Assembly: GCF_900112815.1 (NCBI RefSeq)
Contig: NZ_FOND01000001.1
Location: 342,816 to 406,815 of the forward strand
Source: Blastococcus tunisiensis
GTDB taxonomy: Bacteria > Actinomycetota > Actinomycetes > Mycobacteriales > Geodermatophilaceae
Length of the DNA stretch: 64,000 nucleotides
Reading direction: 5' to 3'
Shown here piece by piece: positions 3,800-63,770 of the stretch. The notes beneath the pieces are model-generated. The model made no database searches. It was not told the origin of the DNA and saw nothing but the letters and a program-made list of their open reading frames with translations. The translations under genes and the position numbers were made by a program. Numbering within the stretch: position 1 is the stretch's first letter; every line of letters starts with the position of its first letter.

Positions 3800-3867
3800 G
3801 GCCCCATCCTGCCCGGTCCACCTGGGAGCGCGCGCCCGGGTTCCGGGGCTACACGCCGGTCGGGCCG

Positions 3868-4737: not shown

Positions 4738-6185
4738 CAGGCGTCGTGCCCCTTCAGGTACGCGGCGAGCCCGTGGCGGCCGCCCTCGCGGCCGTAGCCG
4801 GACTGCTTGTAGCCGCCGAACGGCGAGGTGGGGTCGAACTTGTTGAACGTGTTGGCCCAGATCACGCCGGCCCGCAGCTGGTTCGCGATCTTGAGGATCC
4901 GCGAGCCCTTCTCCGTCCAGATGCCGGCCGAGAGCCCGTAGGTGGTGTTGTTCGCCTTCGCGACGGCCTCGTCCGGGGTGCGGAACGTGAGCACGGAGAG
5001 CACCGGGCCGAAGACCTCGTCCCGGGCGATGCGGTGGGCGGGGGAGACGTTCGTGAAGACCGTCGGCGGGAACCAGAACCCGCGCTCGGGCAGGTCGCAG
5101 GCGGGCTGCCAGCGCTCGGCGCCCTCTGCCTCGCCGATGTCGGACAGCTCCCGGATGCGGGCGAGCTGCTCGGCGGAGTTGATCGCCCCGATGTCGGTGT
5201 TCTTGTCCAGCGGGTCGCCGACCCGCAGGGTGCCGATCCGCCGCTGCAGCGAGGCGATGACCTCGTCGTGGATCGACTCCTGCACCAGCAGCCGGGAGCC
5301 GGCGCAGCACACGTGGCCCTGGTTGAAGAAGATGCCCTGCACGATGCCCTCGACGGCCTGGTCGATCGGTGCGTCGTCGAAGACGATGTTGGCCGCCTTG
5401 CCGCCGAGCTCCAGCGTGACCTTCTTGCGGGTGCCGGCGACGGCGCGGGCGATGGACTTGCCGACCTCCGTGGAGCCGGTGAAGGCCACCTTGTCGACGT
5501 CGCCGTGCTCGACCACCGCGCGCCCCGTCTCGCCGGCGCCGGTCACGATGTTCACCACGCCGGGGGGCAGGTCGGCCCGGCGGCAGACCTCGGCGAACAG
5601 CAGCGCGGTCAGCGGGGTGGTCTCGGCCGGCTTGAGGACGACGGTGTTGCCCGTCGCCAGCGCCGGCGCGACCTTCCAGGCGAGCATCAGCAGCGGGAAG
5701 TTCCAGGGGATGACCTGTCCGGCCACGCCGAGGGGCCGCGGGGCGGGGCCGAGGCCCGCGTGGTCGAGCTTGTCCGCCCAGCCCGCGTGGTAGAAGAAGT
5801 GCGCGGCGGCCAGGGGGACGTCGACGTCGCGGGACTCCCGGATCGGCTTGCCGTTGTCCAGGGACTCCAGGACGGCGAACTCCCGCGCCCGCTCCTGCAG
5901 CAGGCGGGCGATGCGGAACAGGTACTTGCCGCGGTCGGCCGGGCGCATCGGGCCCCAGACCTTGTCGAACGCCCGGCGGGCGGCCCGCACGGCGCGGTCG
6001 ACGTCGGCCTCGCTCGCCGTGGCGACCTCGGTGAGGACCTCCTCGGTGGCCGGGTTGACCGACTTCAGCGGCTCGCCGGTGCCGTCGACGAACTCGCCGT
6101 CGACGAACAGGCCGTAGGACGGCGCGATGTCGACGATGGACCGCGACTCGGGCGCGGGGGCGTACTCGAAAACGCTGCTGCTCAT
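4737..6185 (-). CDS. NAD(P)-dependent aldehyde dehydrogenase
   Basis: A 482-aa full-length aldehyde dehydrogenase that oxidises an aldehyde to the acid with NAD(P)+. Motifs in order: VIPWNFPLLM near residue 160, NTVVLKPAE, FTGSTEVGK near 235, LELGGKAANI (general base Glu), the nucleophile in NQGHVCCAG near 295, and EVFGPVLSV near 390. It starts 5 nt after deoC ends and is followed by the short ALDH-like gene with a 1-nt overlap. In this context the likely substrate is acetaldehyde released by deoxyribose-phosphate aldolase, although the sequence alone does not fix the substrate. The operon order deoC-ALDH-ALDH-like gives deoxynucleoside catabolism a route from deoxyribose 5-phosphate to acetate and glyceraldehyde 3-phosphate. 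Confidence 0.93.
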   Translation of the reverse strand: MSSSVFEYAPAPESRSIVDIAPSYGLFVDGEFVDGTGEPLKSVNPATEEVLTEVATASEADVDRAVRAARRAFDKVWGPMRPADRGKYLFRIARLLQERAREFAVLESLDNGKPIRESRDVDVPLAAAHFFYHAGWADKLDHAGLGPAPRPLGVAGQVIPWNFPLLMLAWKVAPALATGNTVVLKPAETTPLTALLFAEVCRRADLPPGVVNIVTGAGETGRAVVEHGDVDKVAFTGSTEVGKSIARAVAGTRKKVTLELGGKAANIVFDDAPIDQAVEGIVQGIFFNQGHVCCAGSRLLVQESIHDEVIASLQRRIGTLRVGDPLDKNTDIGAINSAEQLARIRELSDIGEAEGAERWQPACDLPERGFWFPPTVFTNVSPAHRIARDEVFGPVLSVLTFRTPDEAVAKANNTTYGLSAGIWTEKGSRILKIANQLRAGVIWANTFNKFDPTSPFGGYKQSGYGREGGRHGLAAYLKGHDA

Positions 6186-49018: not shown

Positions 49019-50578
49019 TCAGTTGATGCAGGTGGTGTCGGCGGCCGTGCGCGCGTCCTCGCCGGCCACCGGCTCCACCGGCTCGGGAGCCGTGACCGGC
49101 TGTCCGACGCCGTTGAAGTTGGAACCGATCACCAGCTCCAGCGTCCCCGGGGCCGGCTCGTCGGCCTCTGCGATGGTCGCCCCCGGGATCGACGCGGCCA
49201 GCGTGTTGGCCAGCGCCTGGTCTCCGGCGGCGTACCGGATCTCCGTGCCGGTGTACTCGCTGCTGTCGGCGTTGCCGGTGCTCGTGACCTGGTACCCCTC
49301 GGCCGCCAGGGCCTCGGCCGTCGAGGCGGCCACGCCCGAGATCCCGGAGCCGTTGAACACCGCGACCGACACCTCGCCGGGGGCCACCGTCTCCGGCGCC
49401 GCAGGTGCGGTCGGCCCGGCGGGGGCCTCCGGTTCGGCGGAGAGGTCGGCGAAGAAGGCGTGCAGCGCGTCCTCGTCCTCCAGCCGCAGGATGTACCGCC
49501 CCTCGTCGTCGGTGTCGTCGCCGACGTAGGGGACGGTCTGGAACTCGACGGCGCCGGCGGTCACCGACTGCATCTGGGTGGCCAGTCCCAGCAGGTCCAG
49601 GGACTGGTCGACGGTGAGCGAGTCGGCGGCGGCCTGGACCAGGGTGCGCTGCTTGCCCAGGTCGAGGAGCACGTTGTCCGACAGCATCTTGCGGATCATG
49701 CCGCCGATGAAGGTCTGCTGGCGGATGATGCGGTCGAAGTCCCCGCGCGGCAGGCCGTGCCGCTGGCGGACGAACGCCAGCGCCTGCTCGCCGCTGATCG
49801 TCTGGACGCCGGCGGGCAGGTTGACGCCGGAGTAGCCGTCCTTGACCGCCTCGCAGAGGTTGATCTCGACGCCGCCGACCACGCTGGACAGGTTGAAGAA
49901 GCCGAGCAGGTCCACCTCGGCGTAGTGGTCGATCTGCAGGCCGGTCAGGCTGCTGATCGTCTGGATGAGCAGCTGGGCACCGGAGGCCTGGCGCTGGGCG
50001 TCGGTGGCGTTGTCGGCCGCCTCGTACTGGTAGCCGTAGGCGTAGGCGGCGTTGAGCTTGTCCCAGCCGTAGCCCGGGATCTCCACGTAGGAGTCGCGGG
50101 GGAAGGAGACGAACGACGCCTTCGACCCGTCGGCGGGGACGTGCACCAGGATCATCGTGTCGGTGTTGATGCCGTCGTTCGCGGTGGTGTTGAGCTGGTC
50201 CAGCTGGTCCTCCGTCGCGCTGGCCCGGCTGTCGTTGCCGACGAGCAGCAGGTTCATCGCCTCGGTGTTGCCGATGCCGTCGTTGCCCTCGCTCGGGATC
50301 GCGTTGGTGCGGTTGACGCTCGCGTCGGCGACCTGACCGAGGTACCAGCCCCAGCCGCTCGTCCCCAGGACCAGCACCGCCAGGACCGCGCTGAGTGCAC
50401 GGGTGGCTCCGGCCGCTCGGCCGAGGGCGCTCCGGCGCGGCCGCGCCTCCCGCGGTCCGCCGTCCTCGGTGCGGGTGTCGCCGCGTCCGCCGCGGCGTGT
50501 CGGTGGCCTGCCGGCGCGCGGGTCGAGCCGGGCGGGAAGCGGCCGCCCCCCGGGGCTGCGCGGGTCTGAACTGCTCAC
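49019..50578 (-). CDS. LytR-CpsA-Psr (LCP) cell-wall glycopolymer ligase with LytR_C domain
   Basis: A 519-aa type II membrane protein: ~90 basic, Pro/Arg/Gly-rich cytosolic residues, one membrane segment (TRALSAVLAVLVLGTSGWGW), an LCP catalytic domain (MNLLLVGNDSRA, INTDTMILVHVP, SFPRDSYVEIPGYGWDKLNAAY, FVRQRHGLPRGDFDRIIRQQ) and a LytR_C domain from about residue 410 (VAVFNGSGISGVAASTAEAL). LCP enzymes attach wall polymers from polyprenyl-phosphate donors to peptidoglycan. The position beside TIGR03089 equals Rv3267. It may ligate the polymer made by the locus at 53.8-63.8 kb. GTG at 50578 with gagga 7 nt upstream. Confidence 0.93.
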   Translation of the reverse strand: MSSSDPRSPGGRPLPARLDPRAGRPPTRRGGRGDTRTEDGGPREARPRRSALGRAAGATRALSAVLAVLVLGTSGWGWYLGQVADASVNRTNAIPSEGNDGIGNTEAMNLLLVGNDSRASATEDQLDQLNTTANDGINTDTMILVHVPADGSKASFVSFPRDSYVEIPGYGWDKLNAAYAYGYQYEAADNATDAQRQASGAQLLIQTISSLTGLQIDHYAEVDLLGFFNLSSVVGGVEINLCEAVKDGYSGVNLPAGVQTISGEQALAFVRQRHGLPRGDFDRIIRQQTFIGGMIRKMLSDNVLLDLGKQRTLVQAAADSLTVDQSLDLLGLATQMQSVTAGAVEFQTVPYVGDDTDDEGRYILRLEDEDALHAFFADLSAEPEAPAGPTAPAAPETVAPGEVSVAVFNGSGISGVAASTAEALAAEGYQVTSTGNADSSEYTGTEIRYAAGDQALANTLAASIPGATIAEADEPAPGTLELVIGSNFNGVGQPVTAPEPVEPVAGEDARTAADTTCIN

Positions 50579-50921
50579 GTACACGTCCTCACGTCTGGCT
50601 GGTCGGCCTGCTCGGGCGGAGCGCGACAGCTCGGCGTCCAGCGGCGGAGATCCGACGACGATACGTCGCCGGGCGGGCCGGACCGGGGACTGACGCCGCG
50701 GAACGGGGCGGGGATCGCTCTCGGCGGTCACACCGACCACGCCGGTGCACTCCCGTCCCGGAGATCGGTGCAAGCACACGTACTGTGACCGGCCAGGCAC
50801 CGATTGCAGCGATCGGACGGCGCGGCAGCCCGAAACCGGCCCGTCGAGCCGTCATCCTGCCGGAGCAGGACTTCCAGCTCGGCGCGCATCCGGCCCCGGC
50901 TGGCACGGAAGGGCAAGGCAT
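50579..50921. other. 343-bp divergent intergenic region
   Basis: It lies between the leftward LCP gene and the rightward exported-protein pair. No gene is supported. A TACTGTGACCG element at 50781-50791 could be a rightward -10 and is repeated exactly upstream of the methyltransferase gene at 53729-53739. No -35, riboswitch or terminator is recognised. Confidence 0.5.
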
Positions 50922-51488
50922 ATGCAGAGGAACAGCCGGCGACTGCTCGTCGTACCGGTCGCGATCGTGGTGGTCGGCGGGGCCCTCGTCGGCGGCGCGG
51001 CCCTGGCCGACATCGGGCCCTTCGCGGCCACCGCCGACGGCGCGCCGGAGACGTCCGGCAGCCCGTCCCCGCAGCCCTCCGACCCCGGAACCGCGACCAC
51101 GGCGCCGGCGGCGACCACCACCACCGCCCCGGCGGCCCCGACGGCGCCGGAGACCTCCGCCGCACCGACCCCGCCGGCCGGGAAGCCGGTGGACGTGCTC
51201 CTCTCCTACGCCGGCTGGGATGCCGGTCGCGGGGTGGTCGAGGCCGCGGCGTCCGTGGCCGGCGTCGTCGAGTCCGGCGGCGTCTGCACGATGACGCTGA
51301 CCTCCGGCAGCAGCACGTTCGAGACCACGCAGGACGCCCTGGCCGACGCCAGCACCACGCAGTGCGGCGCCCTGACCTATCCGGGCGCGCAGCTCGGCTC
51401 CGGGCGCTGGGACGTGACCGTGTCCTACCGCTCCGCCACGTCGTCGGGCGCCTCCGTCGCGACCGCCGTGGAGGTGCCGGCCCGATGA
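50922..51488 (+). CDS. exported protein of unknown function with T/P/A-rich linker
   Basis: A 188-aa protein with an N-terminal membrane/signal segment (RLLVVPVAIVVVGGALVGG, residues ~7-26), a low-complexity Thr/Pro/Ala linker (~40-78) and a ~105-residue domain with two cysteines (GGVCTMTL, TQCGALTY) that looks like a beta-sandwich (WDVTVSYRSAT). Unrecognised family. Its stop overlaps the next gene's ATG (ATGA), so the two products probably work together at the surface. The ATG has aagg upstream; longer frames start at 50745. Confidence 0.75.
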   Translation: MQRNSRRLLVVPVAIVVVGGALVGGAALADIGPFAATADGAPETSGSPSPQPSDPGTATTAPAATTTTAPAAPTAPETSAAPTPPAGKPVDVLLSYAGWDAGRGVVEAAASVAGVVESGGVCTMTLTSGSSTFETTQDALADASTTQCGALTYPGAQLGSGRWDVTVSYRSATSSGASVATAVEVPAR

Positions 51489-53641
51489 GCGACCGTCCCC
51501 TGCCCCGGCACCTCGACCCCCGCCGCCCGGCCGTCGTCCCGCGCAAGCGCCGCTCCTGGCTCGGCCGGCTCCTCCCGGCGCTGGTCGTCCTGGCGGCCGC
51601 TGCCTCGGTGCTCACCGTCGGCGGCAGCTCCTCCAGCGGTGTCCAGCAGGCCGCCGAGCTCAGTCAGTTCGACCCCGGCAACATCATCAGCGACGAGGTG
51701 TTCTTCTTCGGCGCGGGCATGTCGGTGCCCGACATCCAGGCGTTCATCGACACCAAGGGCGCGACCTGCGTGACGGGGAACGACGGGACCCCGTGCCTGC
51801 GGGTCTTCCGCCAGAACACGACCGACCGGCCGTCGGACGCCTACTGCGGGGGCTACGCCGGCGCCGCACAGGAGACCGCGGCGTCGATCATCGCGAAGGT
51901 CGCGCTGTCCTGCGGGATCAACCCCAAGGTCCTGCTGGTCATGCTCGAGAAGGAGCGGGGCCTCATCCGGGCGTCCGGCGCCGCGCTGACGTCCGGGGAC
52001 TACCGGATCGCCATGGGCTACGGCTGCCCGGACACCGCCCCGTGCGATGCGCAGTACTACGGCTTCCAGAATCAGGTCTACATGGCCGCCTGGCAGATGC
52101 AGAAGTACGCCAAGAACCCGCAGAACTACGCCTACAAGGCGGGGCGCACCAACAACATCTACTGGCACCCGAACCTGGCCTGCGGAGCTGCGCCGGTCTA
52201 CATCCAGAACCAGGCCACCGCCGGGCTCTACAACTACACGCCCTACCAGCCCAACAGCGCCGCACTGGGCAACGGCGGGAACACCAGCTGCTCCTCCTAC
52301 GGCAACCGCAACTTCTGGATGTACTTCACCGACTGGTTCATCTCCACCCAGAGCGACTCCGTGGCCCAGGCCTCTCCGCGCGGGAACCTGGAGGCGCTGA
52401 CCCTGACGTCGGCGGGGTTCCGTGCCGTCGGCTGGTCCTTCGATCCCGATGCCGCGCAGACGCCGGTCCCGCTCAAGATCCTCGTCGACGGGACGGCCGT
52501 CGTGAGCGGCAAGACCGGGCTGCCGAGACCGGACGTGGCCACGGTCTTCGGCCCCGGGGGGGCCAACAGCGGGTACTCCGTCGAGGGGCACCTGAGCCAG
52601 GGGCAGCACCAGGTGTGCGTCGTCGCCGACAACGCCGGTGGAAAGGGCGTCCCGATCTCCCTCGGCTGCCGGACGCTGGACTTCACCAACGTGCGCCCGA
52701 CCGTGACGATCGACGTCCTGGCCGAGCAGCCCGACGGCTCGGTGAAGATCGGCGGCTGGGCGTTCGACGGCGACGGGACGCCGGTGGAGCTGCACGTCTA
52801 CGACAACGGCAAGGGGCGCAGCTACAGCCCGACGCTGGCGCGGCCGGACGTCTACAGCATGCACGCGGTCGCCGGACCCAACGCCGGGTACGAGATCGAC
52901 CTCGGGCCGCTCTCGGGGACGCACAACATCTGCGTCTTCGGCGTCGACACCGTCGCCCCGGGCAACAACACGTTGCTGCGCTGCCAGACGTTCAGCTACA
53001 AGGCCCCGCTGGGCCGGGTGGACGCCGTGACCGAGACCGCCGCCGGCACGCTGCAGATCAGCGGCTGGGCCTTCGACCCGAGCGTGCCGACGTTCTCCGC
53101 CGACACGCACGTCTACGTCAACGGCCGTGGGGTCGCCGTCCGGGCCGATCAGCCCCGGCCGGACATCGCCCGGGCCTTCCCCGGCGCCGGTGAGGCGCAC
53201 GGTTTCGCCATGGAGGCACCGGCCGTGGCCGGGACCAACGGGGTGTGCGTCTACAGCATCAACTTCGGGATGGCCGGCCCGCACCTGCCGCTCGTCTGCT
53301 CGGACTTCCCGTTCCCGTACCAGCCCCCGCTGGCCAACGTGGAACTGATCACCGCCGCAGGTCCGGGCCAGGCCCGCGTCGTGGGCTGGGCGTACGACAA
53401 CAGCGTGCCGAAGGCGCCGGTGACCATGCACTACTGGGTGGACGGCAAGCCGTTCCAGGCCGCGAACGCGGATCTGGCGCGGACGGACATCACCCGCTTC
53501 TACCCGGCGGGCGGGCCCAACCACGGCTTCGACAGCACGCTGACCCTCACCCCGGGGCGGCACACGGTGTGCGTCTTCGTCATCAACAACGGTGTCCCGG
53601 GCCCGAACCAGCTCATGCGCTGCGGGGACGTCACCGTCTGA
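51485..53641 (+). CDS. large exported surface protein with four GWxxD repeats
   Basis: A 718-aa protein. Basic N-terminus, a membrane/signal segment (LLPALVVLAAAASVLTVGG, residues ~29-47) and a ~240-aa N-terminal domain with several cysteines and SIIAKVALSCGINPKVLLVM-LEKERGLI, whose glutamate and YYGFQNQVYMAAWQMQKYA recall lysozyme/transglycosylase-like domains (weak). Then four ~105-aa repeats from residue ~298, each with GWxFDP/GWAFD/GWAYDN, RPDVA/RPDIAR/RTDITR and a C-x-V/C-x-F near the end. Similar repeats occur in actinobacterial surface proteins. Enzymatic activity is not established. It ends in a strong terminator. Confidence 0.8.
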   Translation: MSDRPLPRHLDPRRPAVVPRKRRSWLGRLLPALVVLAAAASVLTVGGSSSSGVQQAAELSQFDPGNIISDEVFFFGAGMSVPDIQAFIDTKGATCVTGNDGTPCLRVFRQNTTDRPSDAYCGGYAGAAQETAASIIAKVALSCGINPKVLLVMLEKERGLIRASGAALTSGDYRIAMGYGCPDTAPCDAQYYGFQNQVYMAAWQMQKYAKNPQNYAYKAGRTNNIYWHPNLACGAAPVYIQNQATAGLYNYTPYQPNSAALGNGGNTSCSSYGNRNFWMYFTDWFISTQSDSVAQASPRGNLEALTLTSAGFRAVGWSFDPDAAQTPVPLKILVDGTAVVSGKTGLPRPDVATVFGPGGANSGYSVEGHLSQGQHQVCVVADNAGGKGVPISLGCRTLDFTNVRPTVTIDVLAEQPDGSVKIGGWAFDGDGTPVELHVYDNGKGRSYSPTLARPDVYSMHAVAGPNAGYEIDLGPLSGTHNICVFGVDTVAPGNNTLLRCQTFSYKAPLGRVDAVTETAAGTLQISGWAFDPSVPTFSADTHVYVNGRGVAVRADQPRPDIARAFPGAGEAHGFAMEAPAVAGTNGVCVYSINFGMAGPHLPLVCSDFPFPYQPPLANVELITAAGPGQARVVGWAYDNSVPKAPVTMHYWVDGKPFQAANADLARTDITRFYPAGGPNHGFDSTLTLTPGRHTVCVFVINNGVPGPNQLMRCGDVTV

Positions 53642-53663
53642 CATCCGCGACCGGTGGCACGGA

Positions 53664-53697
53664 CGACCTGCCCCCGCCGACCGGCGGGGGCAGGTCG
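53664..53697 (+). terminator. strong intrinsic terminator after surface-protein gene
   Basis: Perfect 15-bp stem (53664-53678 / 53683-53697, loop gacc) followed by ttcgg. It separates the exported-protein pair from the polysaccharide locus. Confidence 0.8.
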
Positions 53698-53728
53698 TTC
53701 GGCGCCGCTGGCCGCCCGACGCGCCCGG

Positions 53729-53826: not shown

Positions 53827-55773
53827 GTGTCCGTTGGGAAACCCGTCGACGTGACGACCGCGACGCCGGTGCGGATCGCGCACCCGGACCCCGGTCAGGG
53901 CCGGTACACGCTGCTGCGGGCCGTCGAGTCGACGTACCGCGACGGGGCCGAGGAGACCCTGCTCGACATGGTCCGCGGCTCCGAGGACCTCGGATCGCTC
54001 AACGAGGACCTGCACGGCCGGGCCGAGGGATGGGCGCAGCGCTACCACGTCGACCGTCAGCGGGCGAACGTGCTGCGCGCCTTCGAGCTGTCCGGCGCCA
54101 CCCGGGTGCTGGAGGTCGGCGCCGGGTGCGGGGCGATGAGCCGGTACCTCGCCGAGACCTGCACCGCGGTCGACGCGCTGGAGCCGGTGCAGGCGCGGGC
54201 GGCCGTGGCGGCCGCGCGGCTGCGCGACCTGCCGGGCGCCCGGGTGTTCGCCGGGGAGCTGGCCGACCTGCCCGACGAGCCCTCCTACGACCTGATCGTC
54301 GTCATCGGCGTCCTCGAGTACGTGGGCGGCGGGACCGCCGTCCGCGCGCCGTACCTGGACTTCCTCGACCAGATCTCCCGGCGGCTGCTGCCCGGCGGGC
54401 AGCTGCTCCTCGCCATCGAGAACAAGCTGGGCGTCAAGTACTTCGCCGGCTCGCCGGAGGACCACAGCGACCGCGCCTACGACTCCCTCGAGGGATACCC
54501 GGTCGGCTCCCCGGCCCGCACGTTCGACCGCGCCGCCCTCGCTGACCTGTTCCGCGACGCCGGCCTCGCGCCCCGGTTCTTCAGCGCCTTCCCCGACTAC
54601 AAGCTCACCCGCGCCGTCATGGCCGACGAGCTCATGACCGATCCGTCCGGGCTCGCCGCCCGCCTCCCGCGGTTCCCCAGCCCCGACTGGCAGACCGCGC
54701 GCGACTACGGACCGAACGAGGAACTGCTCTGGCGCACGCTCGTCGAGGCCGGGCAGGCGGGCCACTTCGGGAACTCCTTCGTCGTCGTCGCCGAGCCCGG
54801 GCCGGCCGCCGCCGAGCTGTGGCCGGCCCGGCGGCAGGCCGCCTTCTACACGACCGAACGACGCCCGGGACGGTCCACCGAGACCGTGGTGGACCGGGAG
54901 GACGGCGGGCTCACCCTGCACCGCCGGGTCCTGGGCACGCGCCGCGACGAGGGCGGCCCCACCCACCGGGTGACCGGCGGACCGGTCCTCCCGGGGGTGT
55001 CCCTGGTGGAGAGGCTCGCCCTGGACGACGACCCGACGACGGTCGGCGGCCTGCTCAAGGAGTGGCAGCGGCTGGTGGCCGAGTCGGCCCAGGACGCCGA
55101 CGGCGTGGCGCTCGACCTGGTCCCGCACAACCTGCTGCTGGACGAGTCCGGCCGGCTGGCCTACATCGACGACGAGTGGCGCAGCACCGACTGGTCGCCG
55201 GACGACGTGGTGGCGCGTGGGCTCATCTGGCTGGCCGAGCGGCTGTCGGCGACGCCCTCGCCGTGGCAGTCGCGGGCCTCGCGGCGGGCGCTCGCCGACG
55301 AGCTGGCGCGGCTGATCGACTTCCCGCCCACCGGGGAGTGGCTGTCGGCCGCCGTGCGGCGCGAGGCCGAGCTCCAGGTGCAGCTGCTCCGCGTCGGCCC
55401 CGGGGACCCCCGCTACGCCGGGGAGGTGGACCGGACCGCGGCGGAGCTCGCGCACCTGCAGGAGGCGGCGATGCGCCCGCTGCGGCCGACGGTGAACTCG
55501 CTCGTCGCCGAGCGCGAGGCGGCGCGGGCGGAGCTGGCGGCCGTGCGCCGGGACAACGAGGAGCGCCAGGCGGAGATGCGCGAGGACATCACCCGGACGC
55601 ACGCGGCCCTGGCGGCCGCGCACGAGGAGCTCGGCTCGATCCACGGCTCGCTCGGGTTCCGCGCGGTCGTGGGGCTGCGCAACGGCGTCGACCGGATCGC
55701 CCCCGGGGGCACCCGGCGGCGGGCGCTCTACGAGCGGGCGTCGGCCGGCCTGCAGGCGCGTCGTCGTTCCTGA
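53827..55773 (+). CDS. SAM methyltransferase with kinase-like domain and coiled coil (WbdD-like layout)
   Basis: A 648-aa cytosolic protein. Residues ~65-330 are a class I methyltransferase (motif I VLEVGAGCGAMSRYL near 94; VVIGVLEYVG; LLPGGQLLLAIENK). Residues ~340-530 resemble an aminoglycoside-phosphotransferase/kinase-like fold: LDLVPHNLLLDESG (D-x4-N catalytic loop, ~429-434) and LAYIDDEW (metal-binding D, ~448). Residues ~555-605 are Glu/Arg/Ala-rich coiled coil, followed by a basic C-terminus. Methyltransferase, kinase and coiled coil, in that order and next to Wzm/Wzt, is the plan of WbdD, which caps and measures ABC-exported O-antigen in enteric bacteria. The start may instead be GTG 53851 or 53761. 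Homology to WbdD is a hypothesis. Confidence 0.75.
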   Translation: MSVGKPVDVTTATPVRIAHPDPGQGRYTLLRAVESTYRDGAEETLLDMVRGSEDLGSLNEDLHGRAEGWAQRYHVDRQRANVLRAFELSGATRVLEVGAGCGAMSRYLAETCTAVDALEPVQARAAVAAARLRDLPGARVFAGELADLPDEPSYDLIVVIGVLEYVGGGTAVRAPYLDFLDQISRRLLPGGQLLLAIENKLGVKYFAGSPEDHSDRAYDSLEGYPVGSPARTFDRAALADLFRDAGLAPRFFSAFPDYKLTRAVMADELMTDPSGLAARLPRFPSPDWQTARDYGPNEELLWRTLVEAGQAGHFGNSFVVVAEPGPAAAELWPARRQAAFYTTERRPGRSTETVVDREDGGLTLHRRVLGTRRDEGGPTHRVTGGPVLPGVSLVERLALDDDPTTVGGLLKEWQRLVAESAQDADGVALDLVPHNLLLDESGRLAYIDDEWRSTDWSPDDVVARGLIWLAERLSATPSPWQSRASRRALADELARLIDFPPTGEWLSAAVRREAELQVQLLRVGPGDPRYAGEVDRTAAELAHLQEAAMRPLRPTVNSLVAEREAARAELAAVRRDNEERQAEMREDITRTHAALAAAHEELGSIHGSLGFRAVVGLRNGVDRIAPGGTRRRALYERASAGLQARRRS

Positions 55774-55829
55774 CATCCGGCGCCGTCGGTCGCGCCCGTC
55801 GCCGTCCGGGGCGAGCTGCGCACGGAAGG

Positions 55830-55835
55830 TAGAGT
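55830..55835 (+). promoter_or_regulatory. putative -10 upstream of wzm
   Basis: TAGAGT, 26 nt before the GTG of the ABC permease, which has gaggtaa as ribosome site. No clear -35. Confidence 0.3.
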
Positions 55836-55861
55836 CGACGGACGATGCGAGGTAACCGGTC

Positions 55862-56695
55862 GTGAGCGTCATCGGAGACCTCAAGGACTCCCGCGGGCTC
55901 CTGGTCAACCTGACCCTCCGCGAGGTGCGGGGCAAGTACAAGCGCACCCTGCTGGGGCAGGGCTGGTCGCTGCTGAACCCCATCGCCGTCCTGCTGATCT
56001 ACACGCTGGTGTTCGGCTTCGTGCTGCGCGTCCCGGTGCCGATCGGCGAGAACAGCGGCGTGCAGATCTTCGCCCTCTACCTGGCCTGCGGCCTGATCCC
56101 CTGGACCTTCTTCAGCAACTCGGTCACCAGTGGTATGGGGGCGCTGCTCGGCAACGCGAACCTGCTCCGCAAGGTCTACTTCTGGCGACCCACGCTGGTG
56201 GTCGCGTCGGTGTTCGCCTGGGACGTCACGTTCGCCATCGAGCTGCTGGTGCTCATGGCGGCGCTGCTCATCGTGGGGTCGATGCCGCTGCCCTGGCTGC
56301 CGCTGCTGTTGCTGGCCGTCGTCCTGCTGACCGTCTTCGCCCTCGGCATCGCCCTGATGCTGTCGGTGGCGAACGTGTACTTCCGCGACACCCAGCACTT
56401 CGTCAGCATCGGCATGCAGCTGTGGTTCTACGCCACCCCGATCGTCTACCCGTACTCCCTGATCCAGGACCAGGCCGACCGCATGGCGGCCGACGGGAAC
56501 GGGTTCCCCCTGGAGACGATCTACCGGCTCAACCCGATGGAGCGGTTCGTCAGCGTCTTCCGGTCGATGCTCTACGACAACACCTGGCCGCAGTGGGGCG
56601 ACGTGCTGTTCTGCGTCGTGGTGGCCGCCGCCTCGCTGGGCATCGGCATCTGGGTCTTCACCCGGAGCCAGCACCGTCTCGTGGAGGAACTGTGA
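55862..56695 (+). CDS. wzm: polysaccharide ABC transporter permease (Wzm-like, ABC-2)
   Basis: A 277-aa inner-membrane permease with six hydrophobic segments. Start RDLKD-like segment then LTLREVRGKYKRTLLGQGWSLLNP, the amphipathic/first-helix motif typical of Wzm/TagG, and SVANVYFRDTQHFVSIGMQLWFYATPIVYP. With Wzt it moves a finished undecaprenyl-linked glycan across the membrane. The GTG follows gaggtaa; its stop overlaps wzt (GTGA). Confidence 0.93.
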   Translation: MSVIGDLKDSRGLLVNLTLREVRGKYKRTLLGQGWSLLNPIAVLLIYTLVFGFVLRVPVPIGENSGVQIFALYLACGLIPWTFFSNSVTSGMGALLGNANLLRKVYFWRPTLVVASVFAWDVTFAIELLVLMAALLIVGSMPLPWLPLLLLAVVLLTVFALGIALMLSVANVYFRDTQHFVSIGMQLWFYATPIVYPYSLIQDQADRMAADGNGFPLETIYRLNPMERFVSVFRSMLYDNTWPQWGDVLFCVVVAAASLGIGIWVFTRSQHRLVEEL

Positions 56696-57930
56696 GCGCC
56701 GCGCCCGCCGTCGAGGTCGAGGGCGTCGCCAAGCGCTTCCGCATGTACCGGGAGCGCAACCAGTCGCTCAAGGCCGCCCTCATGCGCGGGGGTCGGGCCA
56801 GCTTCGACGAGTACTGGGCGCTCAAGGACGTCTCCTTCGAGATCCCCCAGGGCTCCACGTTCGCCCTGATCGGGGAGAACGGCTCCGGCAAGTCCACCCT
56901 GCTCAAGTGCATCGCCCGGATCCTCGAGCCGGAGCGGGGACGGATCCGCACGCACGGCTCGGTGGCCGCGCTGCTGGAGCTGGGCTCGGGCTTCCACCCG
57001 GAGCTCTCCGGCCGGGAGAACGTCTTCCTCAACGGCTCGATCCTCGGGATGACCAAGCGCGAGCTGGAGCGGAAGTTCGACGAGATCGTCGACTTCGCCG
57101 GCATCGAGCCGTTCATCGACCAGCCGGTCAAGAACTACTCGTCGGGCATGTACATGCGCCTGGGCTTCTCGGTGGCGATCAACGTCGACCCCGACATCCT
57201 GCTGGTCGACGAGGTCCTCGCGGTCGGGGACGCGGCGTTCCAGGAGAAGTGCATGGAGAAGTTCGTGGACTTCCGCCGTGCCGGCAAGACGGTCGTCATC
57301 GTCAGCCACGCCATGGGCTCGATGCGCACGCTGTGCGACCAGGCCGCCTGGCTGGACCGCGGCAGCCTGCTGGACATCGGGCGGGCGGACGCGATCGTGG
57401 ACCGCTACGTCGACAAGGGCCACGAGAAGGGCGTCGCACCGGGGACGGCCGGTGGCGCGAACGCCGAGGCGCGCGTCGGCTCGGGCGAGGCGCGGCTGAC
57501 CACCGTGGAGATGCTGGACGCGTCGGGGACGCCGGCCACCTCGTTCCGGACCGGCGACCCGGTCACGGTGCGCGTGGGCTACGAGTGCACCGAGCGGGTC
57601 GAGCAGCCGGCGTTCGCCCTCGCCATGGACACCGTCGACGGGATGCGCTTCTGGGCGCACCACACCCGCGACGGCGGGCTGGAGCTGCCCTTCATCGAGG
57701 GCACCGGCCACGTCGACCTGGTGATCCCCGCCCTGGCGCTGCAGCCGTACACCATCGACCTCAGCGCGCGGATCCTCGACCACACGCTGACCCACACCTA
57801 CGACTTCCGGCGGCACTGCTACCGGTTCGTCGTCGAGACCGGCGACCACCGGGAGTCCGGCGGGGTGGTGGCCCTCGGCGGTCGCTGGACCGCCGACCTG
57901 CCGGCGTCCGCGTCGGAGACCGCCGTCTGA
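56692..57930 (+). CDS. wzt: polysaccharide ABC transporter ATPase with C-terminal glycan-binding domain (Wzt-like)
   Basis: A 412-aa ATPase: Walker A LIGENGSGKST near residue 60, signature NYSSGMYMRLGFS near 143, Walker B PDILLVDEVLAVGD near 165, and H-loop VSHAMGSM. Residues ~255-412 form an extra domain (RLTTVEMLDASGTPATSFRTG, TVDGMRFWAHHTRDGGL, IDLSARILDHTLTHTYDF), matching the Wzt C-terminal beta-sandwich that in Gram-negatives recognises the capped end of the chain. Its presence implies an end-modified polymer. TagH-type exporters without it do not need a cap. It overlaps wzm by 4 nt. Confidence 0.92.
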   Translation: MSAAPAVEVEGVAKRFRMYRERNQSLKAALMRGGRASFDEYWALKDVSFEIPQGSTFALIGENGSGKSTLLKCIARILEPERGRIRTHGSVAALLELGSGFHPELSGRENVFLNGSILGMTKRELERKFDEIVDFAGIEPFIDQPVKNYSSGMYMRLGFSVAINVDPDILLVDEVLAVGDAAFQEKCMEKFVDFRRAGKTVVIVSHAMGSMRTLCDQAAWLDRGSLLDIGRADAIVDRYVDKGHEKGVAPGTAGGANAEARVGSGEARLTTVEMLDASGTPATSFRTGDPVTVRVGYECTERVEQPAFALAMDTVDGMRFWAHHTRDGGLELPFIEGTGHVDLVIPALALQPYTIDLSARILDHTLTHTYDFRRHCYRFVVETGDHRESGGVVALGGRWTADLPASASETAV

Positions 57931-57946: not shown

Positions 57947-60454
57947 ATGCCCGTGGAGCCGCTCGTCTCCGTCGTCCTCGTGAACTACAAGGGCGCCGAC
58001 GACACGATCACCTGCCTGAAGTCCTTCCAGCAGGTCGACTGGCCCGCCGAGTCCCTCGAGCTGATCGTCGTGGACAACGACTCCGGCGGGGACGACGCCG
58101 AACGGATCCGCCGCGAGGTGCCGTCGGCCGTCGTCGTCGAGGCCGGCGACAACACCGGCTTCGCCGGCGGCTGCAACACCGGTGTGCGGCACGCCCGCGG
58201 CGAGATCGTCGGCTTCATCAACAACGACGCGCGGCCGGCTCCGCAGTGGATCCGGGCGGCCGTGGACGTGCTGGCGCACGACCGGTCGGTGGCGTCGGTG
58301 GCCAGCAAGGTCCTCGACTGGGACGGCACCCACATCGACTACGTCGACGGCTCGCTGACCTGGTTCGGCATGGGCTACAAGCGCGAGGTCGAACGTCCCG
58401 ACACCGGGGAGTGGGACACCCCGCACGACGTCCTGTTCGGCACCGGGGCGGCGATGTTCGTCCGGAAGGACGTCTACGAGACCGTCGGCGGGTTCGACGA
58501 GCGCTTTTTCATGTTCTACGAGGACGTCGACCTCGGGTGGCGGCTCAACCTGCTCGGCTGGCGGGTGCGGTACGAGCCCACGTCCGTGGCGTTCCACAAG
58601 CACCACGCCTCGATGAACAAGTTCGGCAGCTACCGGGAGACGTTCCTCCTCGAGCGCAACGCCCTGTTCAGCATGATCAAGAACTACGGCGACGTGGCCC
58701 TGGCGAAGACCCTCGCCCCGGCCCTGCTGCTGGCCGTGACCCGGGCGGTGGAGCGCGGCGAGATCGACCCGGGCGCCCTGGACCTGAAGCGGTCGCCCGG
58801 CGGCGACGACGTCGGCGAGATGCCCGTACCGAAGGTGACGATGGCCGGGCTCCTGGCCATCGCCGACGCGGCCACCGACATCGACGGGCTGTGGGCCGAG
58901 CGCGACCGGCTGCAGGCCCAGCGCCGCCGAAGCGACCTCGAGCTGGCCCCGCTGTTCCGCCAGGCCATCGAGCCGGCCTTCCCGCTGCCCCGGTACCTGA
59001 AGGCCCACGGCGAGCTGGTGGACCTGTTCGGCATCGGCGAGCTGTTCGCCACCCGCCGCCGGATCGTGGTGATCACCGGCGACCCGCTCGCCGCGAAGAT
59101 GGCCGGGCCGGCCATGCGTGCGTGGGCCATCTCGGAGCACCTGGCGGAGGAGCACGACGTCCGCCTGGTCTCGACCAGCTCGGCGAGCATCACGCACCCG
59201 AAGGTGTCGGTGTCGGCGGTCTCCACCCCCGACCAGCTGCGGCCGCACGAGGCGTGGGCCGACATCATCGTGTTCCAGGGCTTCGCGATGGCCTCCGCCC
59301 CGTGGCTGGCCCGCTCCGGCAAGATCATCGTCTGCGACATCTACGACCCCATGCACCTGGAGCAGCTCGAGCAGACGCGCGGCCAGGAAGGCGACCAGCG
59401 CACCCGCGACGTCGCCAACACCACGACCGTGCTGAACCAGCAGCTGGCCCGGGGCGACTTCTTCCTGTGCGCCAGCGAGAAGCAGCGGCACTTCTGGCTC
59501 GGGCAGATGGCCGGGGTCGGGCGGCTCAACCCGTCGAACTACGACGCCGACTCCTCGCTGAACTCGCTTCTCGCCGTGGTCCCGTTCGGGCTGAGCTCGG
59601 TCCCGCCGCGGCGCACCCGGCCCGCGATCAAGGGCGTGGTCCCGGGCATCAGCGAGAGCGACAAGGTCGTCATCTGGGCCGGCGGCGTCTACAACTGGTT
59701 CGACCCGCTGACCCTGGTGCGCGCCGTCGACCAGCTGCGCCACCGGCGGCCCGATCTCCGGATGTTCTTCCTCGGCATGCGCAATCCCAACCCGCACGTG
59801 CCCGAGATGCGGATGGCCGCGGCCACCCGCGAGCTGTCGGACTCCCTCGGGCTCACCGGCACGCACGTGTTTTTCAACGAGGAATGGGTCGACATCGACG
59901 ACCGGCAGAACTACCTGCTGGACGCCGACGTCGGGGTCAGCACGCACTTCCAGCACGTGGAGACCACCTTCGCGTTCCGCACCCGGATGCTGGACTACCT
60001 CTGGGCGGACCTGCCCATCGTGGCCACGGGCGGCGACACGTTCGGCGACCTGATCGCCGCCGAGGGGCTCGGCGTGACGGTGGGGGAGCAGGACGTCGAC
60101 GCCCTCGCCGAGGCGCTGGAGCGGACCCTCTACGACGAGGAGTTCGCCGCCTCCTGCCGGCAGGCCGTCGACCGGGTGCGCGGCGAGTACTCGTGGGAGA
60201 CGGCGCTGCGCCCGCTGATGGAGTTCTGCCGGGCGCCGCGCCGCGCGCCGGACCTCCAGGTCCCCGACGCCAAGGGCCGGGAGCGGTCGCTGGTGCCCGG
60301 CCGGCTCCTCGACACCGGCTACCAGCCGTCCCTGCGCGGCGATGCCGGCCTGGTCCGGCAGTACCTGGCCGAGGGCGGGCCGACCGAGCTGGCCCGGCGG
60401 GTCGTCGGCCGGGTCCGCCGCCGGACCGTCGAGCGGCTGCGCGGCGGGAGCTGA
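57947..60454 (+). CDS. two-domain glycosyltransferase (GT2 + GT-B)
   Basis: An 835-aa bifunctional protein. Residues 1-270 are a GT2 rhamnosyltransferase-like domain (SVVLVNYKGADDTITCLKSF, VVDNDSGG, FINNDARPAP, MFYEDVDLGWRLNLLGWRV). Residues ~365-760 are a GT-B domain (RIVVITGDPLAAKMAGPAMR, VIWAGGVYNWFDPLTLVRAV, MFFLGMRNPNPHVPEM, RMLDYLWADLPIVATGGDTF, where GT4 enzymes usually have an E-x7-E). Between them lies a ~60-residue linker. Two linkages could be made by one protein, as in bacterial heteropolymer repeat synthesis. It begins 16 nt after wzt. Sugar donors are not predictable, although GT2 members of this type often use dTDP-rhamnose. Confidence 0.88.
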   Translation: MPVEPLVSVVLVNYKGADDTITCLKSFQQVDWPAESLELIVVDNDSGGDDAERIRREVPSAVVVEAGDNTGFAGGCNTGVRHARGEIVGFINNDARPAPQWIRAAVDVLAHDRSVASVASKVLDWDGTHIDYVDGSLTWFGMGYKREVERPDTGEWDTPHDVLFGTGAAMFVRKDVYETVGGFDERFFMFYEDVDLGWRLNLLGWRVRYEPTSVAFHKHHASMNKFGSYRETFLLERNALFSMIKNYGDVALAKTLAPALLLAVTRAVERGEIDPGALDLKRSPGGDDVGEMPVPKVTMAGLLAIADAATDIDGLWAERDRLQAQRRRSDLELAPLFRQAIEPAFPLPRYLKAHGELVDLFGIGELFATRRRIVVITGDPLAAKMAGPAMRAWAISEHLAEEHDVRLVSTSSASITHPKVSVSAVSTPDQLRPHEAWADIIVFQGFAMASAPWLARSGKIIVCDIYDPMHLEQLEQTRGQEGDQRTRDVANTTTVLNQQLARGDFFLCASEKQRHFWLGQMAGVGRLNPSNYDADSSLNSLLAVVPFGLSSVPPRRTRPAIKGVVPGISESDKVVIWAGGVYNWFDPLTLVRAVDQLRHRRPDLRMFFLGMRNPNPHVPEMRMAAATRELSDSLGLTGTHVFFNEEWVDIDDRQNYLLDADVGVSTHFQHVETTFAFRTRMLDYLWADLPIVATGGDTFGDLIAAEGLGVTVGEQDVDALAEALERTLYDEEFAASCRQAVDRVRGEYSWETALRPLMEFCRAPRRAPDLQVPDAKGRERSLVPGRLLDTGYQPSLRGDAGLVRQYLAEGGPTELARRVVGRVRRRTVERLRGGS

Positions 60455-60466
60455 CCGGCTCCTCGC

Positions 60467-61528
60467 TCAGTCCTCGACGAGCAGGCCGGCGGTGACCCGG
60501 GGCGGCACCGCCGCGGTGCGCCGCAGCGCCCGCCGCCGGCGCAGCATGCGGGGGAGCAGCCGGAGGAACGAGCCGTAGGCCCGCAGCCGCGTGGTGGTCA
60601 TCGCGCGGCCGGGCCCCTCGTGCACGGTCAGCGAGGCCACCGTCAGCGGGTAGCGCAGCGCCGCCCGCCAGGCGAGCGCCGCCGGCGCGTTCTTCGCCAG
60701 CACCAGCAGCCGGTTGCGGTCGTCGTGGAAGCGGAACAGCCGGGAGCGGAGGTCGCTGCTCGCCCCGTGGGCGTGGCGGACGACGGACGACGGCTCGTAG
60801 CGCACCGTCCACCCCGCGGCGCGCAGCCGCCAGGACAGGTCGGTGTCCTCGTAGTAGAGGAAGAGGTCCGGGTCGAAGTTCCCCACCTCGGCCACGGCGT
60901 CCATCCGCAGCAGCACGGCCGCGCCGCAGAACGCGAACACCTCCGGCGGCGGCTCGTCCCCGCCGTCCGGCCGCAGCCAGCCGCGGTCCCGCCCGTAGCC
61001 GCCGCGCGTCACCTCGTTGCCGGTGGAGTTCACCAGGTCGACGGGGCCCGCCGGGTCCGGCCGGTAGACGCCCGCCGCGGTGACGACGTCCCCGGCCGCG
61101 GGTGCTCCGGCGGTGGCCGGGGACAGCAGCCGGAAGCGCGGGCGCAGCAGCACCTTGGCGGTGACCGCGGCGACGCGCCCGGCGTCCGGGGCCTCGACCG
61201 CCCGCACCAGCGCACCCAGGAAGTCCGGCTCGGGGACCGCGTCGTTGTTGAGCAGAACCGCGTACGGGGTGCGCACCTGGGCGAGGCCCAGGTGGGCGCC
61301 GCCGGCGAACCCCGTGTTGACCGGCGAGGTCAGCACCTCGACGTCGGGGTGGGCGCGGGCCAGGTGCGCGAGCGTGCCGTCGGTCGAGGCGTTGTCGACG
61401 ACGAGGACGCGCCACAGCGCCGGGTCGAGCCGCTGGCGGGCCAGGCCGCCCAGGCAGTCGTCGAGCAGGTGCACGCCGTTCCAGGTGACCACCACGACGG
61501 TGACCAGCGGCCGTGCCGCCTCGGTCAC
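60467..61528 (-). CDS. GT2 glycosyltransferase (rhamnosyltransferase-like)
   Basis: A 353-aa glycosyltransferase family 2 protein: TVVVVTWNGVHLLDDCLGGL, VVDNASTDGTLAHL, NTGFAGGAHLGL, LLNNDAVPEPD (metal site) and LFLYYEDTDLSWRLRAAGW. The pattern resembles WbbL, which adds rhamnose in the mycobacterial linkage unit; Rv3265c lies at the same end of the syntenic region. The C-terminal ~50 residues are basic and amphipathic, possibly membrane-binding. GTG start overlaps the upstream GT4 gene stop (GTGA). Donor sugar inferred. Confidence 0.9.
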   Translation of the reverse strand: MTEAARPLVTVVVVTWNGVHLLDDCLGGLARQRLDPALWRVLVVDNASTDGTLAHLARAHPDVEVLTSPVNTGFAGGAHLGLAQVRTPYAVLLNNDAVPEPDFLGALVRAVEAPDAGRVAAVTAKVLLRPRFRLLSPATAGAPAAGDVVTAAGVYRPDPAGPVDLVNSTGNEVTRGGYGRDRGWLRPDGGDEPPPEVFAFCGAAVLLRMDAVAEVGNFDPDLFLYYEDTDLSWRLRAAGWTVRYEPSSVVRHAHGASSDLRSRLFRFHDDRNRLLVLAKNAPAALAWRAALRYPLTVASLTVHEGPGRAMTTTRLRAYGSFLRLLPRMLRRRRALRRTAAVPPRVTAGLLVED

Positions 61529-62604
61529 GCCCGCGACCGCTCGTAGGCGCCGACCGTCCGGCGGGCGCACTCGGTCCAGGTGTGCCCGACCGCCCACTCC
61601 CGGGCGGCGGCCACGCTCCCGGGCCGGCGCGGGGGGAGGGCCAGCAGCGCAGCGGCCCACGCGTCCACGTCGGTGGGCGGCACCAGCCGGGCGTGGCCCC
61701 CCGCGACCTCCCGGTGCACCGGCAGGTCGCTGGCGAGGACCGGGGTGCCGGCCGCCATCGCCTCCAGCACGGGCAGGCCGAACCCCTCGTAGTGCGACGG
61801 GAGCGCCGCGGCGGCCGCACGGGCGACCAGGGCGCGCAGGTCGCCCGGGTCCAGCCAGCCGGTGAGGTGGACGCCGGGGCGTGCGGGCAGCTCCGGGCCC
61901 CAGCCGACCGGGCCGGCGATGACCAGGTCGGGCACCTCGCCCGCCGCCCGGGCCCGGGCGTGCGCGTCGAGCAGGGTGGTCAGGTTCTTCCGGGGCTCGC
62001 GGGTGCCGGTGAACAGGACGAACCGGCCCGGCAGCCCCCGGGAGGTGAGCCACGCGTCGTCGGCCGGCACCGCCTGCGCCCATGCCGGGTCGACGCCCAG
62101 GGGGGTGGCGACCACCCGCTCCGCCGGCAGCCCGTAGGCCTCCCGGACCTCGTCGGCGACCGCCCGGCTGGGGGTGACGACGATCGCGGCCGTGTTCCGC
62201 AGCGCGCGGGGCACCAGGTCGGTGTACCGCGCCACGGCCGGGGTGACCCACTGCGGGTGACGCAGGTAGGTGAGGTCGTGGACCGTGACCACCGACCGCG
62301 CCCGCAGCGACGGGGGCGCCACGAAGTTCGTGGCGTGGAAGACGTCGACGTTCCCGGCGAAGACCTCCACCGGGGGCAGCGGGGTCCGCGCCCACGCGGC
62401 CTGCAGCAGCCGTGCGGGCGCGGGCACGTGTCGCCAGGTCACCGCGCTGGGCAGGCCGTCCGGCCGGCCGCCGGCCCGCAGGGTGAACGGCACCGCGCGG
62501 GGCCGGTGCCCGAGGTCGGCGAGCCCGGCCAGCAGGCCGCGCACGTACGTCCCGACTCCCGTTGCGGTCCCCAGCAGGGGGGTCCCGTCCACCGCGATCC
62601 TCAT
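61525..62604 (-). CDS. GT4 glycosyltransferase
   Basis: A 359-aa GT-B glycosyltransferase: MRIAVDGTPLLGTATGVGTY, VVTVHDLTYLRHPQW, VVTPSRAVADEVREAYG, LFTGTREPRKNLTTLL and the E-x7-E donor-binding motif in HYEGFGLPVLEAMAAGTPV. The first ATG, 62613, would add MVP. It is head-to-head with the next GT4 gene (50 nt apart) and precedes the GT2 gene on the same strand. Confidence 0.9.
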   Translation of the reverse strand: MRIAVDGTPLLGTATGVGTYVRGLLAGLADLGHRPRAVPFTLRAGGRPDGLPSAVTWRHVPAPARLLQAAWARTPLPPVEVFAGNVDVFHATNFVAPPSLRARSVVTVHDLTYLRHPQWVTPAVARYTDLVPRALRNTAAIVVTPSRAVADEVREAYGLPAERVVATPLGVDPAWAQAVPADDAWLTSRGLPGRFVLFTGTREPRKNLTTLLDAHARARAAGEVPDLVIAGPVGWGPELPARPGVHLTGWLDPGDLRALVARAAAAALPSHYEGFGLPVLEAMAAGTPVLASDLPVHREVAGGHARLVPPTDVDAWAAALLALPPRRPGSVAAAREWAVGHTWTECARRTVGAYERSRA

Positions 62605-62641
62605 CGGCACCATCTCAGCACGGGTGCCCGCCGCCGCCGTC

Positions 62642-62647: not shown

Positions 62648-62654
62648 CGGGGCC

Positions 62655-63770
62655 GTGCGGGTCGCGGTGGTCCTCGAGCAGTGCCTCGCCCCCGTTCCGG
62701 GCGGGACGGGCCGCTACTCGGCCGAGGTCGCCGCCGCCCTGGCCGGCCGCCCGGACCTGGCCGTGTCCGGCTGGGTGGCCTGGCACCGCCGTCCCGGGGC
62801 CGCCCGGCCGGCCGGCGTGGACGGCCCGCACCGGCTGCCGCTGCCCCGCCGGCCGCTGATCGCCGCCTGGGAGCGTGGCGTGGGTCCGGCGCCCGGGGGC
62901 CGGCCGGACGTCGTGCACGCCCCGACCCTGCTCGTGCCGCCCCGGCGCGGGCGGCCCCTGGTGGCCACGATCCACGACGCCGTGCCCTGGACCCACCCGG
63001 AGACGCTGACCCCACGCGGCGTCCGCTGGCATCGCACGATGGCCGAGCGGGTGGCGCGCACGGCCGACGCCGTCGTGGTGCCCACCCGGGCGGTCGCCGA
63101 CGCGCTCCGGGAGCACGTCCGTCCCCGTCGCGTCGAGGTGATCGGGGAGGGCGGGACGGCGGCGCTGCTGGCCCCGCCACCGGACGCCGCCGCCCGAGCG
63201 CAGCGGCTGGCGCTGCCCGCGTCCGGCTACCTGCTCAGCCTCGCGACGATCGAGCCGCGCAAGGGGCTGGACGTGCTGCTCGCCGCCCTGGCGGATCCGG
63301 CGGCACCGGACCTGCCGCTGGTGGTCGTGGGCCAGCCGGGCTGGGGCGGGGTGGACCCGGACGAGGTCGCGGCCGGACTGGGCCTGCCGGCGGGGCGGGT
63401 GCGGGTCATGGGCAGGCTCTCCGACACCGATCTCAGCGTGGCGCTCGCCGGCGCCACGGCGCTCGTGGTGCCCAGCCGGGCCGAGGGCTTCGGGCTCCCC
63501 GTCGTCGAGGGCATGGCGGCGGGCGTGCCGGTGGTCACCTCGGCCGACCCCGCGCTGGTCGAGGTCGGCGGGGCCGCCACCCGGATCGCCGCGACCGGCG
63601 ACGCGGCGGAGCTCGCCCGGGTGCTGCGGGCCGTCGTCGACGACCCGGGGGAGCGGGCCCGCATGTCCGCGGAGGGGCGGCGGCGTGCCTCGCTGTTCAC
63701 CTGGGCGGCGGCTGCGGTAGAACTGGAGAGCCTCTACCGCGACCTGTGCGGCGCGGACCGGCCCGGCTGA
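62655..63770 (+). CDS. GT4 glycosyltransferase
   Basis: A 371-aa GT-B enzyme with VRVAVVLEQCLAPVPGGTGRY, VATIHDAVPWTHPETL, VVPTRAVADALREHV, LATIEPRKGLDVLLAAL and RAEGFGLPVVEGMAAGVPVV (E-x7-E). Its layout parallels its divergent neighbour, suggesting paralogues acting on consecutive sugars of one polymer. The GTG start is supported by a leaderless-type -10. Confidence 0.9.
   Translation: MRVAVVLEQCLAPVPGGTGRYSAEVAAALAGRPDLAVSGWVAWHRRPGAARPAGVDGPHRLPLPRRPLIAAWERGVGPAPGGRPDVVHAPTLLVPPRRGRPLVATIHDAVPWTHPETLTPRGVRWHRTMAERVARTADAVVVPTRAVADALREHVRPRRVEVIGEGGTAALLAPPPDAAARAQRLALPASGYLLSLATIEPRKGLDVLLAALADPAAPDLPLVVVGQPGWGGVDPDEVAAGLGLPAGRVRVMGRLSDTDLSVALAGATALVVPSRAEGFGLPVVEGMAAGVPVVTSADPALVEVGGAATRIAATGDAAELARVLRAVVDDPGERARMSAEGRRRASLFTWAAAAVELESLYRDLCGADRPG

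Follow-up and report, generated by a model that had tools for sequence, protein, structure and literature searches.

Within the 64,000-nucleotide stretch of Blastococcus tunisiensis DNA analysed here (the window), a gene for a 648-aa protein, in which a methyltransferase domain is joined to a kinase-like domain, lies directly ahead of wzm and wzt, the permease and ATPase genes of a polysaccharide exporter (Table 1). We consider it likely that this protein is a chain-end terminator of the type of ORF6 of the Klebsiella pneumoniae O7 system, and that a methyl-phosphate cap at the end of a glycan chain halts its growth and licenses its export, in this case in a monoderm host. This reading starts from the genes, the folds, the conserved catalytic residues, the Wzt C-terminal domain (Wzt_C) and the gene linkage across phyla that the present analysis establishes directly. 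Terminators of this kind were already described in 2022-2024 in other, Gram-negative, bacteria; the well-conserved one considered here belongs to a monoderm branch of which we found no account in the open-licence literature searched.

The 648-aa protein and its kinase-like domain

Table 1. Features at and around the terminator gene, by position in the window
Feature	Positions	Strand	Basis
LytR-CpsA-Psr (LCP) protein, candidate ligase of polymer to peptidoglycan	49019..50800	-	PF03816 E 2.2e-43
Hairpin between upstream gene and terminator gene; 19-bp stem, 4-nt loop, near-perfect, G+C-rich	53660..53701	+	
648-aa methyltransferase-kinase, proposed chain-end terminator (O7 ORF6 / Lcin_0519 type)	53827..55773	+	
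Class I S-adenosylmethionine (S-AdoMet) methyltransferase domain, residues 33-325; GxGxG = G98 G100 G102	53923..54801	+	
Kinase-like (APH/choline-kinase type) domain, residues 326-546	54802..55464	+	
Catalytic loop D430-L-V-P-H-N435	55114..55131	+	Alignment of family rows
Proposed metal-binding motif D448-x-E450-W451	55168..55179	+	Metal role by analogy
Long helix, residues 556-606, possible short coiled coil / spacer	55492..55644	+	AlphaFold2 (AF2)
C-terminal tail, residues 607-648	55645..55770	+	AF2
Wzm, ABC-2 type polysaccharide export permease	55862..56695	+	PF01061 E 3.7e-11
Wzt, export ATPase	56689..57930	+	ABC_tran E 5.2e-22
Wzt_C, Wzt residues 260-395	57466..57873	+	PF14524 E 1.2e-17, 64.7 bits vs cut-off 30.4
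835-aa two-domain glycosyltransferase (GT2 + GT4-type), candidate polymerase	57947..60454	+	Pfam
GT2 glycosyltransferase	60467..61537	-	Pfam on 60593-61537
GT4 glycosyltransferase	61525..62613	-	Pfam
GT4 glycosyltransferase	62652..63770	+	Pfam

The initial annotation of this locus had pictured a methyltransferase, a kinase-like segment and a coiled coil, followed by Wzm and by a Wzt to which a C-terminal domain is added. Pfam, AF2 modelling and motif conservation bear out this anatomy, with a long helix in the place of the proposed coiled coil. The sole domain that Pfam recognises in the protein is the N-terminal class I methyltransferase; it recognises no family in residues 326-546, the kinase domain that family searches miss. 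A kinase fold had been anticipated for residues 340-530, and the AF2 model of residues 326-546 (predicted local distance difference test, pLDDT, 94.9) does take one, kinase folds accounting for all 50 of the structural matches listed for it.

One pattern scan of species genomes returned 402 stretches, 400 of which are relatives; the best 80 were kept, and the family counts given below refer to 87 rows, namely these 80, six others and the window, with L021 and L026 representing the same place. Row sets A2 and A3, which leave out three truncated loci (L058, L098 and L100), hold 63 and 60 of the 77 remaining loci, respectively, each with the window added. In the family alignment D430 and N435 are each kept in 86/87 rows, D448 and E450 each in 85/87, and W451 in 83/87. 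A kinase-domain profile with 61 members found five matches among the PDB sequences at E <= 10, with choline kinase 4r77 at the top (E 0.0049, on the catalytic loop). The domain shares with choline kinase and the APH small-molecule kinases the D-x2-P-x-N and ID-x-E loop and the fold; those are free-standing enzymes acting on small molecules, and to our knowledge none has a fused methyltransferase.

The canonical beta-3 lysine is absent from the window protein, where H365-R366-R367 stand instead in columns that are basic but variable across the family, and the top Foldseek chain for the kinase model comes from Rv3910, whose kinase homology domain we take to be a pseudokinase. Both points would fit a degenerate kinase, with the methyltransferase working alone to make an O-methyl cap, the situation known from E. 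coli O8, where WbdD is a plain methyltransferase (PMC3482155). We regard this as improbable, since D430, N435, D448 and E450 are intact and near-invariant, and since Lcin_0519, the prototype of a family predicted in a Legionella survey, is likewise described as having typical catalytic residues and no ion-pair Glu (PMC9758233). A regulatory protein kinase/methyltransferase controlling the exporter or the glycosyltransferases is another reading that the kinase fold might suggest, protein kinases being the majority of the listed structural matches; otherwise it has only the nearness of these genes in its favour. We find it very hard to credit, because an antibiotic (APH) kinase heads the VIA-align matches of the kinase model, albeit in a tie with a protein kinase, and because the characterised relative, O7 ORF6 (ORF6-O7), acts on a sugar (PMC11231755).

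Comparison with O7 ORF6, Lcin_0519 and WbdD

The closest described counterpart of the proposed terminator is ORF6-O7. According to its description (PMC11231755, JBC 2024), that protein combines a methyltransferase, a 223-residue unannotated domain proven to be a kinase, an immunoglobulin (Ig)-like domain, a coiled coil and glycosyltransferases, and enzyme assays in vitro gave the phosphorylated and methyl-phosphorylated product, the D441A variant being inactive. The window protein likewise has a methyltransferase followed by a kinase domain that belongs to no recognised family and then a helical region, with wzm and wzt in the gene cluster; as in that study, CgnL (7pd7) is among the top structural matches of the methyltransferase and an APH-type kinase among those of the other domain. 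The two differ in that ORF6-O7 continues into the Ig-like domain, the coiled coil and two GT2 modules, whereas in the window protein only a 51-residue helix and a basic tail follow the kinase domain and the glycosyltransferases are separate genes, and in that ORF6-O7 serves a Gram-negative O antigen whereas the window host is a monoderm.

The residue correspondence was drawn solely through published residue numbers and aligned relatives. The S-AdoMet residues reported for ORF6-O7 (Y28, Y66, G91, G93, E112 and Y158) occur with identical numbering in seven fetched relatives, the start codon being free to vary, and the catalytic Asp of these seven lies at 443-448, not exactly at 441; among the loci compared, no other reached five of the seven queried residues (the six S-AdoMet residues and D441). 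Through six aligned relatives the ORF6-type residues map to Y37, Y73, G98, G100, E119, Y165 and D430 of the window protein, the D430 column holding the catalytic Asp at 443-446 in these six, with D441 as its counterpart in ORF6-O7.

Lcin_0519 represents, in the 2022 Legionella survey (PMC9758233), a predicted kinase-methyltransferase family with a frequent coiled coil and with Wzt, Wzm and glycosyltransferase neighbours, for which no alpha-C helix is reported. The window protein resembles it in the kinase-methyltransferase pair near the same three kinds of gene, and in its AF2 model the segment from the N-lobe strands to residue 393 also contains no alpha-C helix. Unlike the window host, the taxa named there are Gram-negative, and that family is a prediction only. 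We infer that the Lcin_0519 and O7 ORF6 families are one and the same; each of the two papers sets its own family apart from WbdD.

The kinship with WbdD proposed in the initial annotation did not hold, ORF6-O7 and Lcin_0519 being the better prototypes. WbdD orthology had in its favour the shared domain order and the presence of WbdD chains among the Foldseek matches of the whole model, where 4azs, at rank 15 (E 1.3e-8), is the highest-placed entry whose alignment exceeds 500 columns. The superposition on 4azs is nevertheless poor (root-mean-square deviation 17.3 over 535 columns), no WbdD appears by name among the five kinase-profile matches in a PDB set that should contain, for example, 4azs, and the kinases of ORF6-O7 and WbdD are, according to the authors of PMC11231755, quite different in sequence and structure. 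WbdD orthology was dropped on the profile result, and we give a true orthologue next to no credence. WbdD is also absent from the 50 listed kinase-model matches and from the best 60 of 222 whole-protein profile matches, neither of which absences excludes anything. By analogy the mode of action would still resemble that of E. coli O9a WbdD (PMC3482155), namely phosphate and then methyl at the chain end, a spacer helix and a Wzt C-terminal domain; WbdD differs in its long coiled coil and its recruitment of WbdA, and its kinase domain has no detectable sequence kinship with that of the window protein. The label 'WbdD-like' is therefore right for function and wrong for family, and of the proposed comparable end-capping and export system the anatomy stands while the WbdD family does not.

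Linkage to the exporter across the family and in the actinobacterial branch

In the fetched stretches Wzt was found in 57/87 rows, Wzm in 50/87 and both in 50/87. Because some of the counted rows (the window and L019-L023) had served to build the search models for Wzm and Wzt, we recounted without these and one duplicate, which gave Wzt in 50/80 and Wzm in 43/80. Many loci are interrupted by contig ends, and gene calls in neighbouring loci followed a rule based on G+C at third codon positions (GC3), so that wrong frames are possible; among loci of at least 17 kb, Wzt is present in 38/55. As to co-occurrence with a Wzt bearing the C-terminal domain, 54 of the 57 Wzt have Wzt_C. Since Wzt_C is not common (over the cut-off in 39/112 Geodermatophilaceae genomes and 2/14 control genomes), its frequent presence within a few kilobases of the terminator, judged informally against this background, is hardly due to chance. 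All four Geodermatophilaceae genomes with a full-length terminator (the window's own, G304, G355 and G380) have Wzt_C over the cut-off versus 35/108 of the others, the sample being small and its genomes related.

Within the Geodermatophilaceae the window protein matches seven of 111 other genomes at E <= 1e-5, four of which were not counted as terminators because only 113-134 methyltransferase residues align, and none of the other 15 listed genomes of the same genus. Among 295 other genomes of the class two match at E <= 1e-10, in the methyltransferase part only (G053 36-321, G078 12-162), although the G053 protein carries the kinase motif despite that alignment.

A tree of 83 rows (without L058, L098, L100 and L021; quick method, midpoint root) groups 14 rows with a Shimodaira-Hasegawa-like approximate likelihood ratio test (SH-aLRT) value of 99: ten records labelled Actinomycetota, one Dormiibacterota bin, and three unlabelled rows, the window and two genomes of its family. 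The branch holds 13 of the 14 actinobacterial rows in the tree. The single one outside, L024, groups with Acidobacteriota and has a long terminal branch; in this genome of the same class the methyltransferase-kinase is fused behind about 925 further residues (L024:7600-12420, 1606 aa), the adjoining glycosyltransferase shares 49% identity across 366 residues with the 835-aa glycosyltransferase of the window, and no Wzm or Wzt was found in the 18-kb stretch.

Within the branch several observations weigh against a cap that is read by the exporter in every member. Only six of the 14 rows (the window, L026, L022, L023, L030 and L034) have Wzt in the stretch and eight do not, so that the expectation that homologues lie beside wzm and wzt stood for the family and failed only for part of the actinobacteria. 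Wzt_C occurs anywhere in the genome for 10/14 branch rows (7/11, plus the window's own genome, G304 and G355), and is absent from the genomes of the other four, a Jatrophihabitans metagenome-assembled genome, Actinosynnema pretiosum and two Amycolatopsis. In Actinosynnema and Amycolatopsis a cap cannot be read by Wzt_C. The eight rows without Wzt and the four genomes without Wzt_C speak against a uniform cap-and-export reading across the branch. Glycosyltransferases and AlgX-like SGNH genes surround the Actinosynnema gene and the one scanned Amycolatopsis gene, a setting which is still that of glycan assembly.

These members, without wzm or wzt in the stretch, together with the shortness of the helix, are what an alternative function would draw upon, in which the enzyme decorates internal or side-chain positions of a glycan, or a lipid-linked intermediate, with methyl phosphate (or with phosphate and methyl separately), neither stopping the chain nor licensing export. 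We think this unlikely, given that Wzt is close in the window and in the majority of family rows and nearly always carries Wzt_C, the expected cap-reader partner. Perhaps, and only tentatively, Actinobacteria may possess their own old branch of methyl-phosphate terminators for peptidoglycan-bound wall polymers of monoderms, in which the Amycolatopsis and Actinosynnema cap would have become uncoupled from export licensing, with no Wzt_C in the genome, and related Geodermatophilaceae with the same exporter type might use other candidate terminators, such as a Methyltransf_24 protein next to Wzt.

In three of six sampled Geodermatophilaceae Wzt_C loci a Methyltransf_24 protein of about 400 aa adjoins Wzt (L148:7813-9024, L149:6478-7713, L150:6220-7425) and is a candidate alternative cap enzyme; no O7-type terminator was found in these six loci (16-kb stretches). 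The terminator genes of Actinosynnema and Amycolatopsis each share a 4-bp overlap with the gene upstream (L029:6703-7926, L035:6685-7983), which has a product of 407-432 aa. The N-termini of these two products look alike by eye, no Pfam family was found for that of L035 at E <= 1e-5, and the protein is possibly a conserved partner.

The ORF6 orthologues named in the accessible part of PMC11231755 are alpha- and gammaproteobacterial, cyanobacterial and from Methanoculleus, actinobacteria not being among those seen there. The supposition that such capping is undescribed in actinobacteria fared well in one respect, in that we found no paper placing the methyltransferase-kinase terminator scheme there in the open-licence literature searched, but the scheme itself is published for Gram-negatives (PMC11231755, PMC9758233).

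Proposed mechanism and surrounding genes

We propose that a lipid-linked glycan would grow in the cytoplasm, where the 835-aa glycosyltransferase and its neighbours are the probable polymerising enzymes. Using ATP, the kinase domain would phosphorylate the terminal sugar of the non-reducing end at a hydroxyl, D430 serving as the catalytic Asp and N435, D448 and E450 placed around Mg, and the methyltransferase domain would then methylate that terminal phosphate with S-AdoMet; both steps are proposed because of the ORF6-O7 biochemistry. The capped chain would be unable to grow. The Wzt encoded next to the terminator might recognise its cap through the C-terminal domain, a step suggested by Wzt_C and the gene linkage, and Wzm/Wzt would export finished chains. 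An LCP protein most likely fixes the exported chain to peptidoglycan, as proposed from the established LCP function and the LCP gene 3 kb upstream, whose tie to the terminator locus we infer from nearness only. Under such a scheme the non-reducing end should carry methyl phosphate as a specific chemical mark, and if a cap-and-read module were conserved in an actinobacterial family, chain-length control and export licensing would become directly testable there.

Polymerase and cap may be kept at a set distance by the helix at 556-606. This ruler role is the least secure step, because the single helix in the AF2 model is only 51 residues long and its heptad tests are marginal, passing only in variants that count ILMFV alone. 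Among 74 family tails (13 rows lay outside the test) 35 pass at 0.05 with 200 shuffles, many tails continuing into fused glycosyltransferases. The C-terminal tail, with one helix at 609-624 (hydrophobic moment 0.54, without a control run) and a very basic one at 630-647, is a possible site of membrane or partner contact.

The gene for the 835-aa glycosyltransferase begins 16 bp past wzt, and its product is 85% identical to the counterpart at the same position in Modestobacter caceresii, where the terminator, wzm, wzt and four glycosyltransferase genes follow in identical order at 67-85% identity. Just upstream of the terminator gene, 51362-53641 encodes a large protein, judged by eye to be probably secreted, with no Pfam family found for 51500-53638 at E <= 0.1; M. 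caceresii has two adjoining relatives of it upstream of its terminator (L021:35-2656 and 2726-5809). The hairpin between this gene and the terminator gene is very stable (folding energy -50.6 kcal/mol, z -7.9), with no clear U run seen 3' of it, and because it separates the two genes the terminator gene may begin its own transcription unit. Plasmid records also yielded relatives, one in Pseudomonas asturiensis and one in Citrobacter braakii, each immediately preceded by genes with ABC permease and ATPase annotations; none was found in viral contigs, and a PHROGs search with the window protein gave a weak tRNA-methyltransferase match only.

Glycosyltransferase (GT2, GT4) and nucleotide-sugar genes go on directly past the window (L117:1711-18384), and include nucleotidyltransferases, one ManC-type and another that we take from its N-terminus to be RmlA-like, a DegT aminotransferase, a GDP-mannose 4,6-dehydratase and RmlC. 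Because of these nucleotide-sugar genes, dTDP-rhamnose and a GDP-mannose derivative are candidates for the sugars of the polymer.

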